Shown here piece after piece: positions 12,655-45,597 of a DNA stretch of 64,000 bases. The translations under genes were made by a program, and so were the position numbers. Position 1 is the first letter of the stretch. Each line of letters starts with the position of its first letter. The notes beneath the pieces were generated by a model. The model was given only the letters and a program-made list of their open reading frames with translations. It was not told where the DNA came from and ran no database searches. Source of the stretch: Chamaesiphon sp. 336R_metabinner_41 (GTDB lineage: Bacteria > Cyanobacteriota > Cyanobacteriia > Cyanobacteriales > Chamaesiphonaceae); contig JANYDE010000137.1 of assembly GCA_025359915.1 (NCBI GenBank), positions 1-64,000 on the forward strand. The letters run 5' to 3'.

Positions 12655-12663
12655 TGTGAGGAG
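12655..12663 (+). promoter_or_regulatory. Putative Yfr1 sRNA pairing site overlapping the RBS of the porin gene
   Basis: TGTGAGGAG is the exact reverse complement of CUCCUCACA within the conserved Yfr1 motif ACUCCUCACAC; GAGGAG lies about 10 nt before the ATG at 12674. Confidence 0.6.
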
Positions 12664-12673
12664 CACCACCCGA

Positions 12674-14284
12674 ATGTCATCAGCATTTTGGAAATCTGTA
12701 TTAATTAGCCCTGTAGTTTTGGGCATCACTCTGTTATTATCCACTGGGGTAATGGCAGCACCGAAAAGCGATTCGATCGATAGTTTGACACCAATTAGGG
12801 AAAAAGCCAATGGTGTAACACCTGTTAAAGTTGCCGCCAGCGAAACTGCTCCAACTACCGAAGCTGAAGTTGCGACTAATACTGTTAAACCTGGAGACTG
12901 GCAATATACTGCCCTTCAAGGTGTTGCCGCGAAATATGGTTGTAACTCTAACCTGAACAATCAAGTTGTCTCGCAACTGGAATTCGCGCGTGGTTTGAAT
13001 AGCTGCTTGGCAAAACTAGAGCCGATCTTGGCTCAAAAGCCAACTACAACTACTCAGCCAACCACTCCTGCTGTCACTGCCGCCGATCTTGAAGTGATCA
13101 AGAGATTGACTCAAGAATATCGCGCCCAACTGACCGAAATTGATGGTCGTCTGACTAGTGCTGACAAGAAAGTAGCTCAAGCTCAAGCAAGCCAGTTTTC
13201 TACTACTACCAAGCTCAAAGGTGAAGTAATCTTCAACGTAACTGGTGCTGCTAGTGGTGCGACGTCTAATAATACTGTACTTGGCGATCGGGTTCGGTTA
13301 TTATTTGAAACTAGCTTCAACGGTCAAGACAGGCTTTGGACACGTTTGGCGACTGGAAACCAAGGTGGTGTCAATGGCGGCTTGAAAAATAGCACCGCTG
13401 AAGGTGGGCAAGTTTCTGAAGGTGTTCCGTTCACCAATCTTAACACTGTCGGTATCGACTGGTTAGCCTATCAATTTCCGGTTAGCAACACCAATGTCTA
13501 TGTAGCTGCATATAACGGAATTCATGCTGATTACGCTCCTACCTATGGGTCTAATTTTGATGACTTCACCGGAGGTAGTGGTGCCCTTTCCAACTTTGCC
13601 GAATCTAGCCCCATCTACAAAATCGGTGGTGGTTCTGGCGTTGGTACTAGTTTACCCTTTGGGGATACTGGGTTGAAGTCTTTGACAGTCGGTTACTTTG
13701 CCGGTCCTACCAGTGCGAACAAGCCTGCCGCTGGACAAGGTTTATTCAACGGTGACTATGCTCTATTAGGACAGTTGAATTTCAAACTTAGCGATAAGTT
13801 GGATGCTGGTTTAACCTATGTCAATAGCTATCATACTGCTACCAACCCCATTTATGCCTTTGGGGGTTCTGGTGGATTAACTGGTACAGGAATAGCAAAC
13901 CTCGCAACTGCTGGTACTACAGCCAATTCCTATGGTGCTGAGTTTGCTTTCAAAGCTAGTGATACTCTCGCATTCAATGGATTTGTACTAAATACTAGTG
14001 CAAACAAAGCTACTATCGGCAAACAAGATCTTTGGAGCTATGGTGCTGGACTTTCTTTACCAAACATCGATGGTAAAGGTAGTTTGGCTGGGTTGCTAGT
14101 TGGAGCTGAACCTTATGTTGGTGGTGTTGGCACCGTTCCTTATCACATCGAAGGTTTCTACAAGTACAAATTTAGTGACAACCTCAGCATTACACCTGGA
14201 TTGATCTATCTAACTGCTCCCAATCAAACTAGTAATGGTAATAGTGCCGTAATTGGTGTGGTCAGAAGTACTTTCACATTCTAA
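12674..14284 (+). CDS. Iron uptake porin (OprB/SLH-type cyanobacterial porin)
   Basis: Signal peptide; SLH-like QYTALQGVAAKYGCNSNLN; TTKLKGEVIFNVTGA...; barrel ending SITPGLIYLTAPNQTSNGNSAVIGVVRSTFTF. Confidence 0.9.
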   Translation: MSSAFWKSVLISPVVLGITLLLSTGVMAAPKSDSIDSLTPIREKANGVTPVKVAASETAPTTEAEVATNTVKPGDWQYTALQGVAAKYGCNSNLNNQVVSQLEFARGLNSCLAKLEPILAQKPTTTTQPTTPAVTAADLEVIKRLTQEYRAQLTEIDGRLTSADKKVAQAQASQFSTTTKLKGEVIFNVTGAASGATSNNTVLGDRVRLLFETSFNGQDRLWTRLATGNQGGVNGGLKNSTAEGGQVSEGVPFTNLNTVGIDWLAYQFPVSNTNVYVAAYNGIHADYAPTYGSNFDDFTGGSGALSNFAESSPIYKIGGGSGVGTSLPFGDTGLKSLTVGYFAGPTSANKPAAGQGLFNGDYALLGQLNFKLSDKLDAGLTYVNSYHTATNPIYAFGGSGGLTGTGIANLATAGTTANSYGAEFAFKASDTLAFNGFVLNTSANKATIGKQDLWSYGAGLSLPNIDGKGSLAGLLVGAEPYVGGVGTVPYHIEGFYKYKFSDNLSITPGLIYLTAPNQTSNGNSAVIGVVRSTFTF

Positions 14285-14320: not shown

Positions 14321-14372
14321 GCGATTACTAGAGTAGGGGCAATTCATGAATTGCCCCTACTCTAGTAATCGC
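14321..14372. repeat. Perfect 52-bp palindrome, GGGGCAATTCATGAATTGCCCC family, copy 1
   Basis: gcgattactagagtaggggcaattca|tgaattgcccctactctagtaatcgc, 26/26 complementary. Confidence 0.97.
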
Positions 14373-32522: not shown

Positions 32523-34007
32523 TTGAAAAAACAACTAAACTGGCTGACAATTACCGCAAGTGGCCTGTTTGCCACCTTGTTACTAATCTCCGGTACTCAA
32601 GCAGCCGAATCTTTTGTCAATACATCTACTGACGTTAGTTCAGAACTATTGGCGAACCAGACACCTCACGATAGTTCAAATCAGCTCCTCGCTGCCAGGA
32701 AAAAGAAACGCCTCAAGCAAAAAATTAGGTCGAAAGCAAAAACAACTGCGACGGTGCCAACTACTGCGCCCTCGACAGAATTACCAACAGATCTCACCCA
32801 AACAAATCCAACCCCAGTCCCTCCAACTCCTCCAACTCCTCCAACTCCTCCAGTCCCAACAGGAATAGCTCCACCATCACCAGTAGAAGCACCTACAGCA
32901 CCCATAGAACCACCCAAAGCCGCAGCTCCGGCTCCGAATCAATTTTCATTAAATACAAAGCTGCAAGGACAAGTAATTTTTGGGGTTACGGGAACTGTTG
33001 CTGGTGACTACAGCCGCAACTCAGCATTTGGACATCGGACTCGACTTGAACTCAAAACTGATATCAATGGTGGTACACTCACTACCCGACTTCAAGCCGT
33101 AGGATTGGGACTATCAAATCAAAGCCCGAAAGTGGGTACTACTGCCGTCAGCACTCCTGAGGGTAGCTTATCCTGGACAGACGGCACAACTACGAATAGT
33201 ATCGGCGTTGATGCGCTTAAATATGAATTTGCACTCTCACCTCAAACACAGGTAGTCGTTGCCGCAAATGCTGGTGCGTCAGATGACTTTACCGATACTA
33301 TCAATCCTTATTTTGATGGTGATGGTGCTAGCGGCTCAATTTCTGCTTTTGGTAATCGTCCCTCGATTTACTATACAGTTCAGGGTGCTGGAGTCGGAAT
33401 TCGCCACAAGTTAAGTGAAAACACTGAACTCAGCGTAGGCTATCTAGCACGTAGCGGTAGCAATCCAACCGCAGGGAATGGCTTATTCGGCGGCGGTTAT
33501 GGTGCTCTAGCTCAACTTACCTTCAAAACTGGAGCAAATTCTAAAGTTGGTGTAACTTATACTCGCACGCTAAATTCTGACACTGGTACAGGCAGTATCA
33601 ATGCTAATCCGGCAACTGGAAGTGGAAATAGTAATAACTTCGGACTGCAAAGTTCTTTCCAACTAAGCCCTGAGTTTGCATTGGGTGGTTGGGCTGGTTA
33701 TACCCAAAACCAAGCTACTGGTGGCGACAGACAAATCTGGAACTGGGCGGTAACTGCGGCTGCGCCGGATTTCGGTGGCAAAGGTAATTTAGCCGGGTTA
33801 TTAGTCGGACAAGAGCCACGAGTAGCTTCTTCTGATAATGGCACTACCGATCCTAAATCTGGGCTACATATTGAAGGATTTTATCAAATGAAAGTCAATG
33901 ATAGTCTGAGCATTACACCAGGTATTATTTATCTGACGGCACCGAATCAGGCGACAAATAGCAATGGTGCGGTGATTGGTGTTTTACGAACTACTTTTAG
34001 TTTCTAA
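32523..34007 (+). CDS. Iron uptake porin-like beta-barrel protein with Pro-rich linker (TTG start)
   Basis: LNTKLQGQVIFGVTGT..., C-terminus SLSITPGIIYLTAPNQATNSNGAVIGVLRTTFSF parallels the porin ending at 14284. Confidence 0.87.
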   Translation: MKKQLNWLTITASGLFATLLLISGTQAAESFVNTSTDVSSELLANQTPHDSSNQLLAARKKKRLKQKIRSKAKTTATVPTTAPSTELPTDLTQTNPTPVPPTPPTPPTPPVPTGIAPPSPVEAPTAPIEPPKAAAPAPNQFSLNTKLQGQVIFGVTGTVAGDYSRNSAFGHRTRLELKTDINGGTLTTRLQAVGLGLSNQSPKVGTTAVSTPEGSLSWTDGTTTNSIGVDALKYEFALSPQTQVVVAANAGASDDFTDTINPYFDGDGASGSISAFGNRPSIYYTVQGAGVGIRHKLSENTELSVGYLARSGSNPTAGNGLFGGGYGALAQLTFKTGANSKVGVTYTRTLNSDTGTGSINANPATGSGNSNNFGLQSSFQLSPEFALGGWAGYTQNQATGGDRQIWNWAVTAAAPDFGGKGNLAGLLVGQEPRVASSDNGTTDPKSGLHIEGFYQMKVNDSLSITPGIIYLTAPNQATNSNGAVIGVLRTTFSF

Positions 34008-43763: not shown

Positions 43764-44159
43764 TGGAGCTGGGCAGAGTCGAACTGCCGTCCGCCCTGGG
43801 TATTAACTTTCCGCTCATTCACAGGTATAGTCTATCTAATCCTCAAGACGGGAGTGACCAATTATCCCTGGTCGCAGGATTCTCTGATGAATCTTAGCTA
43901 TCGAACCTACCAGAGACGGTGAGATAGAGCATCCGTTGGGGGTTATCTATAGTAATTAACGGAGTCATACTATAAATGCTCGAACTTAGAAATTAATCTT
44001 AAGCGTTTTTTTAAGCAGCTACAGGAGCGGCTTTACGAGCGAAAGGTACAATGTTGTTTGCATCTATATTTATTTGAGCCGATATTAACGAGAGTGGACT
44101 CCCTCTCGACCTGCATCACAGTGCAGCTTTCGCCAACACGTCGAAACCTTTACAGCCCC
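43764..44159 (-). ncRNA. ssrA: tmRNA
   Basis: Minus strand starts GGGGCTGTAAAGGTTTCGACG and ends GGTTCGACTCTGCCCAGCTCCA; internal tag codons (44014-44061, stop TAA 44011-44013) read ANNIVPFARKAAPVAA. Confidence 0.96.
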
Positions 44160-44277
44160 AAGTCTCTTTATTATATAGTGTTTTGCGGGAATTGTCATGA
44201 GGGGGCGAGGCGACTGGGAGACTGGGGGAGAAAATATATCCCCTATTACCTATTACCTATTACCTATCCCCCTCCTC

Positions 44278-45597
44278 ATGAAACTCCTCTGTATCAGCAA
44301 CGGACATGGTGAAGATGCAATCGCCTTACCTGTCTTACAAGAATTGCGCAAACTATCCCCATCCGCAGAAATAGTCACATTGCCGATCGTGGGTGTGGGG
44401 AAGGCGTATAGTAATAATGGTTTCTCGATCGCAGGGAATGTCCAAACGATGCCGTCGGGGGGATTTCTGAATCAAGATAATCGCCAATTGGTGCGGGATT
44501 TGCGCGGGGGATTGGCGGGATTGACGATCGACCAAATTCGGACTGTTCGCAATTGGGCGAAGTCTGGTGGTAAAATTCTGGCGGTGGGTGATATTGTGCC
44601 GTTATTATTTGCCTGGATGAGTGGGGCTGATTATGCTTTTATCGGTACGGCAAAATCGGAGTATTATATTCGGGATAGTCAGGGACAGATTTTACCATCG
44701 CAGCAGGATTCGATCGAGGTAAAAACCGGATCTTATTATTTTCCGTGGGAGCGGTGGTTATTAAGTCGGGATAGATGTCAGGCGGTATTTCCAAGAGATA
44801 AATTAACTACTGAAAATCTGTGCCAATACCAGATTCCGGCTTTCGATTTGGGAAATCCGATGACGGATGGAGTATCGACAGATCCCAATCTACCAATATT
44901 TTATCCATCTAAATCAGCCAAGCAACCCCTCGTTGTCACATTACTTCCTGGCTCGCGTCCGCCAGAAGCTTATGGGAATTGGAAACAAATACTTATCGCT
45001 GTAAATAGCCTGATTCCGGTCTTTAACCAGCGGGAAATCATCTGTTTGGCTGCAATTACCCCGACCTTAGATTTAGATATCTTACAAGGCAATTTGGATG
45101 AATTGGGATGGATGCAAACGATTGCCGTTCGCGAAGCGTCTCGAAGAGAAGGCAGGTTTTCAACCAACGATCCTGCTGCTGAGTTAATTAGTCTCATTCC
45201 CGATGCGAGGGCGATTTATTATCGACGAGATCATTCGACGATCGTGATTAGCACTCAAGCTTATTCACAGTGTATGCGATCGGGGGACTGTGCGATCGCG
45301 ATGGCGGGTACGGCGACGGAACAGTTTATCGGATTGGGTAAACCTGCATTTATCATTCCAGGTGCTGGCCCTCAGTTTACACCAGCTTTTGCCGAAGCTC
45401 AAACTCGACTATTGGGTGAGTCGGTGATTCTAGTACCTCAGGCGCAGGATCTGGGGGTGGAAATGCAGCGATTATTAGCGCAACCCGATAAGTTAAGATC
45501 GATTTATCAGAATGGACTATTACGCATGGGTACGCCTGGTGCTGCGAAACGAATTGCAGCGTGTTTGATGGGAATAATGGGTAGGGGTAATTCATGA
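44278..45597 (+). CDS. Lipid-A-disaccharide synthase-related protein (TIGR03492-like), paralogue A
   Basis: MKLLCISNGHGEDAIALPVLQEL, MPSGGFLNQD, LAVGDIVPLLFAW, LLPGSRPPEAYGNW, GTATEQFIGLGKPAFIIPGAGPQFTPAFAEAQTRLLG. Confidence 0.87.
   Translation: MKLLCISNGHGEDAIALPVLQELRKLSPSAEIVTLPIVGVGKAYSNNGFSIAGNVQTMPSGGFLNQDNRQLVRDLRGGLAGLTIDQIRTVRNWAKSGGKILAVGDIVPLLFAWMSGADYAFIGTAKSEYYIRDSQGQILPSQQDSIEVKTGSYYFPWERWLLSRDRCQAVFPRDKLTTENLCQYQIPAFDLGNPMTDGVSTDPNLPIFYPSKSAKQPLVVTLLPGSRPPEAYGNWKQILIAVNSLIPVFNQREIICLAAITPTLDLDILQGNLDELGWMQTIAVREASRREGRFSTNDPAAELISLIPDARAIYYRRDHSTIVISTQAYSQCMRSGDCAIAMAGTATEQFIGLGKPAFIIPGAGPQFTPAFAEAQTRLLGESVILVPQAQDLGVEMQRLLAQPDKLRSIYQNGLLRMGTPGAAKRIAACLMGIMGRGNS

Follow-up and report, generated by a model that had tools for sequence, protein, structure and literature searches.

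Yfr1 is a small RNA that is nearly universal in cyanobacteria and is characterized by an ultraconserved loop. Small RNAs are also deployed against porins in enterobacteria, where MicF (PMC6202907) acts against the translation of the OmpF mRNA. MicF and other enterobacterial porin sRNAs resemble the system considered here in blocking the translation of an outer-membrane porin mRNA but are not homologous to it. The closest described systems are those of other cyanobacteria. In Nostoc sp. PCC 7120, Yfr1 pairs with the mRNAs of the OprB-type porins alr0834 and alr4550 immediately before the start codon and thereby represses them; that this repression is direct was established with an E. coli reporter and Yfr1 mutants (PMC6974561). 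In Prochlorococcus MED4, it represses the porins PMM1119 and PMM1121, with a reporter for the latter going down approximately fourfold and Yfr2 relieving the repression (PMC6778093). Yfr1 has been reported to be nearly constitutive; the authors of the Nostoc study also concluded that it has been assigned differing functions in distant lineages and asked for an analysis of its targets in non-heterocystous filamentous strains (PMC6974561).

Here, we consider a porin gene of Chamaesiphon that lies in a 64,000-nt stretch of DNA (hereafter the window, i.e. the whole stretch analyzed). Like alr0834 and alr4550, it belongs to a homologous porin family, faces the same Yfr1 loop and has its predicted pairing near the start codon. 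It differs from them in coming from another lineage, in having a pairing of 9 bp, in being known from sequence alone and in that only one of the five OprB-family genes of its 4.23-Mb genome, namely this one, has the full seed. With PMM1119 and PMM1121 it shares the targeting of a porin mRNA by Yfr1 in the translation start region; however, those are distant porins, and in MED4 Yfr2 and Yfr10 form a network. The leader element of the Prochlorococcus porins, GTGTGAGG, also occurs in the picocyanobacterial relatives examined here. As porin repression by Yfr1 is already known from Nostoc and Prochlorococcus, the new point is a modest, comparative one. We consider it highly likely that the leader of the Chamaesiphon porin carries a conserved site targeted by the trans-acting Yfr1, which would block ribosome binding there.

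The porin gene and its leader

The gene (12674..14284, plus strand) codes for a 536-aa protein of the por_somb ('iron uptake porin')/OprB family with a signal-peptide-like N-terminus, which matches the NCBIfam model NF033921 (por_somb; 287.4 bits, cut-off 100) and the Pfam model PF04966 (OprB; 112.2 bits, cut-off 22.9). The label 'iron porin' reflects the family name only, with iron as a putative substrate; Slr1908 of Synechocystis reportedly transports inorganic iron. The nearest homologues in named genomes are all from Chamaesiphon. The ATG at 12674 is the right start, since the N-terminus MSSAFWKSV is kept across the genus, and two relatives have no in-frame start corresponding to the in-frame GTG at 12656, which here lies within the seed.

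Upstream of this ATG, TGTGAGGAG (12655..12663, plus strand) is perfectly complementary over 9 bp to CUCCUCACA of the Yfr1 loop. The Shine-Dalgarno sequence GAGGAG (12658..12663, plus strand) lies inside it, 10 nt before the ATG. A preliminary description of this DNA had recorded both elements and a perfect pairing over 9 nt, all of which hold: nine of nine positions pair, and the match is exactly 9 bp, given that the C flanking the seed on either side is unpaired with Yfr1. This is shorter than the 10-12 bp seen in many other families.

Across the genome, there are 28 copies of TGTGAGGAG as against 17 of the reversed pattern, one of the 28 being the antisense of yfr1 itself. The copy at 12655-12663 is the sole convincing one at Shine-Dalgarno distance before the ATG of a long frame. 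Copies in L015 and L033 were considered as leader sites and rejected: there are long frames nearby, but on inspection the copies look internal to coding sequence. What distinguishes the copy in the porin leader within the genome is its position, the count alone being barely beyond chance.

yfr1 and the predicted pairing

The proposal that Yfr1 represses this porin by occluding its ribosome-binding site presupposes a yfr1 gene in the genome. The gene is present and intact (L001, 1461-1533, minus strand), matching the Rfam covariance model RF01116 with 46.6 bits (E = 2e-7) against a gathering score of 38. It is located directly downstream of guaB on the same strand; the gene on its other side codes, by inspection, for a rhomboid-like membrane protein and is not trxA, whereas most homologues of yfr1 sit between guaB and trxA. 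The predicted fold has two hairpins, and the 11-mer ACTCCTCACAC, found once in the genome, is unpaired between them with a probability of 1.0; the ultraconserved ACUCCUCACAC is likewise unpaired between the two hairpins. The same 11-mer is present in all nine family relatives with a yfr1 match, and yfr1 itself in all searched members of the genus except one, whose genome is 77% complete.

Pairing energies were computed for the unpaired Yfr1 loop only, with the energy for opening the leader included. An unrestricted duplex prediction with the whole of Yfr1 had yielded long meaningless duplexes that melted the Yfr1 hairpins and was replaced by the loop-only version. The interaction prediction for the 12674 leader is favorable, with a hybrid energy of -15.9 kcal/mol, or -11.0 kcal/mol after the leader-opening cost, at positions -20 to -10. 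None of 200 dinucleotide-shuffled leaders matched it (mean -1.9, best -7.2 kcal/mol). A few sites in the window outside the ribosome-binding site reach a similar energy, so that energy by itself is not decisive. A comparison of the paralogous leaders, which the preliminary description had called for along with the interaction prediction, gave -1.0, -7.6, -1.7 and -0.9 kcal/mol for the other four OprB-family genes. The leader of the porin at 32523 had been described as having no Yfr1 match, and this is correct. The paralogue at -7.6 kcal/mol (L003, on contig C30 of the same genome) has the leader cagtgtgaaggaaa (gtgtgaaggaa), in which the seed is broken by one extra A; this is possibly a decayed or weak Yfr1 site.

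In the mechanism that we propose, the unpaired loop ACUCCUCACAC of Yfr1 would pair with UGUGAGGAG in the porin mRNA leader, thereby covering the Shine-Dalgarno sequence and blocking ribosome binding, and abundant free Yfr1 would result in less porin being produced. Ribosome occlusion is the natural reading because this porin shares its anatomy with the Nostoc and Prochlorococcus targets, and it is by analogy with these relatives that pairing and translational repression would be expected in this organism. The intact yfr1, the conserved seed and the repression of homologous porins elsewhere lend support to the earlier claim that Yfr1 may repress this porin in such a manner.

Conservation of the seed in porin leaders

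Seven of the eight orthologous leaders in the genus retain GTGAGGAG, although most of the upstream leader sequence is divergent. One close relative (G005), which has an intact yfr1, carries GTAAGGAG in the leader, and its pairing is weakened to -6.5 kcal/mol. Outside the genus a longer seed, GGTGTGAGGA, occurs right in front of the porin ATG in many families and in the picocyanobacteria. To quantify this, leaders were scored by their longest exact match to GGTGTGAGGAGT at most 24 nt from any ATG that lies in frame within the 5' part. A Yfr1 complement of at least 8 nt lies just 5' of the start in 58 of 75 porin homologues from other genomes, as opposed to 3 of 220 control ORFs drawn from 400 kb of 20 relatives (Fisher p ~5e-42, which is too small, as related genomes are counted as independent). 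Since the p-values share this treatment of related genomes, the safer figure is that all 23 of the 23 sampled families include a porin with the seed. Conservation of the seed in porin leaders at the genus, order and class levels lies far beyond what a Shine-Dalgarno sequence would lead one to expect.

Among the controls, a complement of at least 8 nt precedes the start in just three genes (L091, L098 and L102); on inspection, their products have signal-peptide-like N-termini, and they may be further envelope targets of Yfr1. An attempt to delineate a regulon by GTGAGG before an ATG gave 257 occurrences genome-wide versus 208 for the reversed control, a mild excess that defines no regulon.

Judging from these comparisons, the match at the porin ribosome-binding site very probably represents a genuine control site of ancient origin, and porins seem to form the stable core of a Yfr1 regulon that otherwise shifts. 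We lean toward a broader scenario in which porin leaders have been the ancestral core target of Yfr1 throughout the phylum, with GGTGTGAGGA and the loop co-conserved since before the picocyanobacterial split and other targets changing over that time; some lineages, this genus among them, would have retained the seed on a single porin copy, and Yfr1 would accordingly shift the porin mix. A porin seed in every sampled family provides a simple reason for the conservation of the Yfr1 loop and a single site for examining it.

Alternative explanations for the conserved element

Viewed from a single genome, the porin-leader match could be a Shine-Dalgarno coincidence, with a strong GAGGAG preceded by TGT through chance. 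TGTGAGGAG is present as a single copy in the window, where 0.36 copies are expected, and at least one copy appears in 28% of the shuffled windows; taken alone, its occurrence is unremarkable. Moreover, GAGG cores are ordinary ribosome-binding sequences. As such a coincidence is possible in one genome, the matter is settled by comparison across genomes. TGT was found ahead of a near-start GAGG in 50 of 68 porin cases versus 2 of 55 control cases (p ~1e-16, a value that ignores kinship and is not to be taken literally). Further, the leaders of L061, L078 and L082 have GTGTGAG and, downstream of it, a distinct GAGGA- or GAGA-type site (e.g. ggtgtgagtgaggaataattATG), and in L232 GGTGTGAG directly adjoins the ATG, a Shine-Dalgarno sequence of its own being absent. 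The TGT excess before GAGG and the separation of GTGTGAG from the Shine-Dalgarno sequence argue that the element is maintained as a Yfr1 seed, i.e. the conserved entity in porin leaders is, on this comparative evidence, the Yfr1 complement. A Shine-Dalgarno sequence with a fortuitous TGT, an explanation largely refuted at the family level, is accordingly very unlikely.

If the element is a seed, it might still be read mainly by a factor other than Yfr1, such as an RNA-binding protein or an sRNA sharing the loop, e.g. Yfr10, whose targets overlap those of Yfr1 (PMC6778093). The five of 146 genomes of the class that lack an Rfam Yfr1 were considered as a natural experiment. Two of them, the small, complete Prochlorococcus-like genomes G085 and G155, keep the porin seed and possess a second RNA-like locus, resembling Yfr10, in which a terminator-like hairpin comes after the same 11-mer. 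At L168 and L172 (around 1501, minus strand), from two Prochlorococcus-like genomes without Yfr1, ACTCCTCACAC precedes a GC-rich hairpin and a T-run in a Yfr10-like arrangement, with no match to an Rfam sRNA there. Another two (G069 and G118) are fragmented assemblies in which porin seeds are still present, and their yfr1 has therefore probably been lost from the assembly; the fifth genome is only 62% complete. With the Yfr10-like locus in the first pair and the fragmentation of the second, the natural experiment failed: among the five there is no clean co-loss of the sRNA and the porin seed, and no contradiction either. In the Chamaesiphon genome, in contrast, yfr1 is the sole locus with the 11-mer, so that no other RNA could supply the full motif, and published Yfr1 mutants map the effect to the Yfr1 loop (PMC6974561); we regard a different main reader as very improbable. 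The least probable of these alternatives is that Yfr1 does pair here but activates the porin or mainly alters the stability of its mRNA. Nostoc amiC2 is indeed activated by Yfr1, but the pairing in that case lies further upstream, whereas those targets to which Yfr1 pairs right before the start, as it is predicted to do here, are repressed (PMC6974561).

Other features of the window

Just past the stop codon of the porin gene, there is a perfect 52-nt palindrome (14321-14372; 26+26 with no spacer). Its 28-nt core, GTAGGGGCAATTCATGAATTGCCCCTAC, is a dispersed palindromic repeat with 27 copies in the genome and none of the reversed control; four of them are on the contig of the window, at 14333, 22376, 58005 and 62992. 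The window also contains a tmRNA gene (43764-44159, minus strand) with the tag ANNIVPFARKAAPVAA. The permuted-tmRNA model scores slightly over its cut-off in an overlapping region (44011-44353), which is probably a cross-match.
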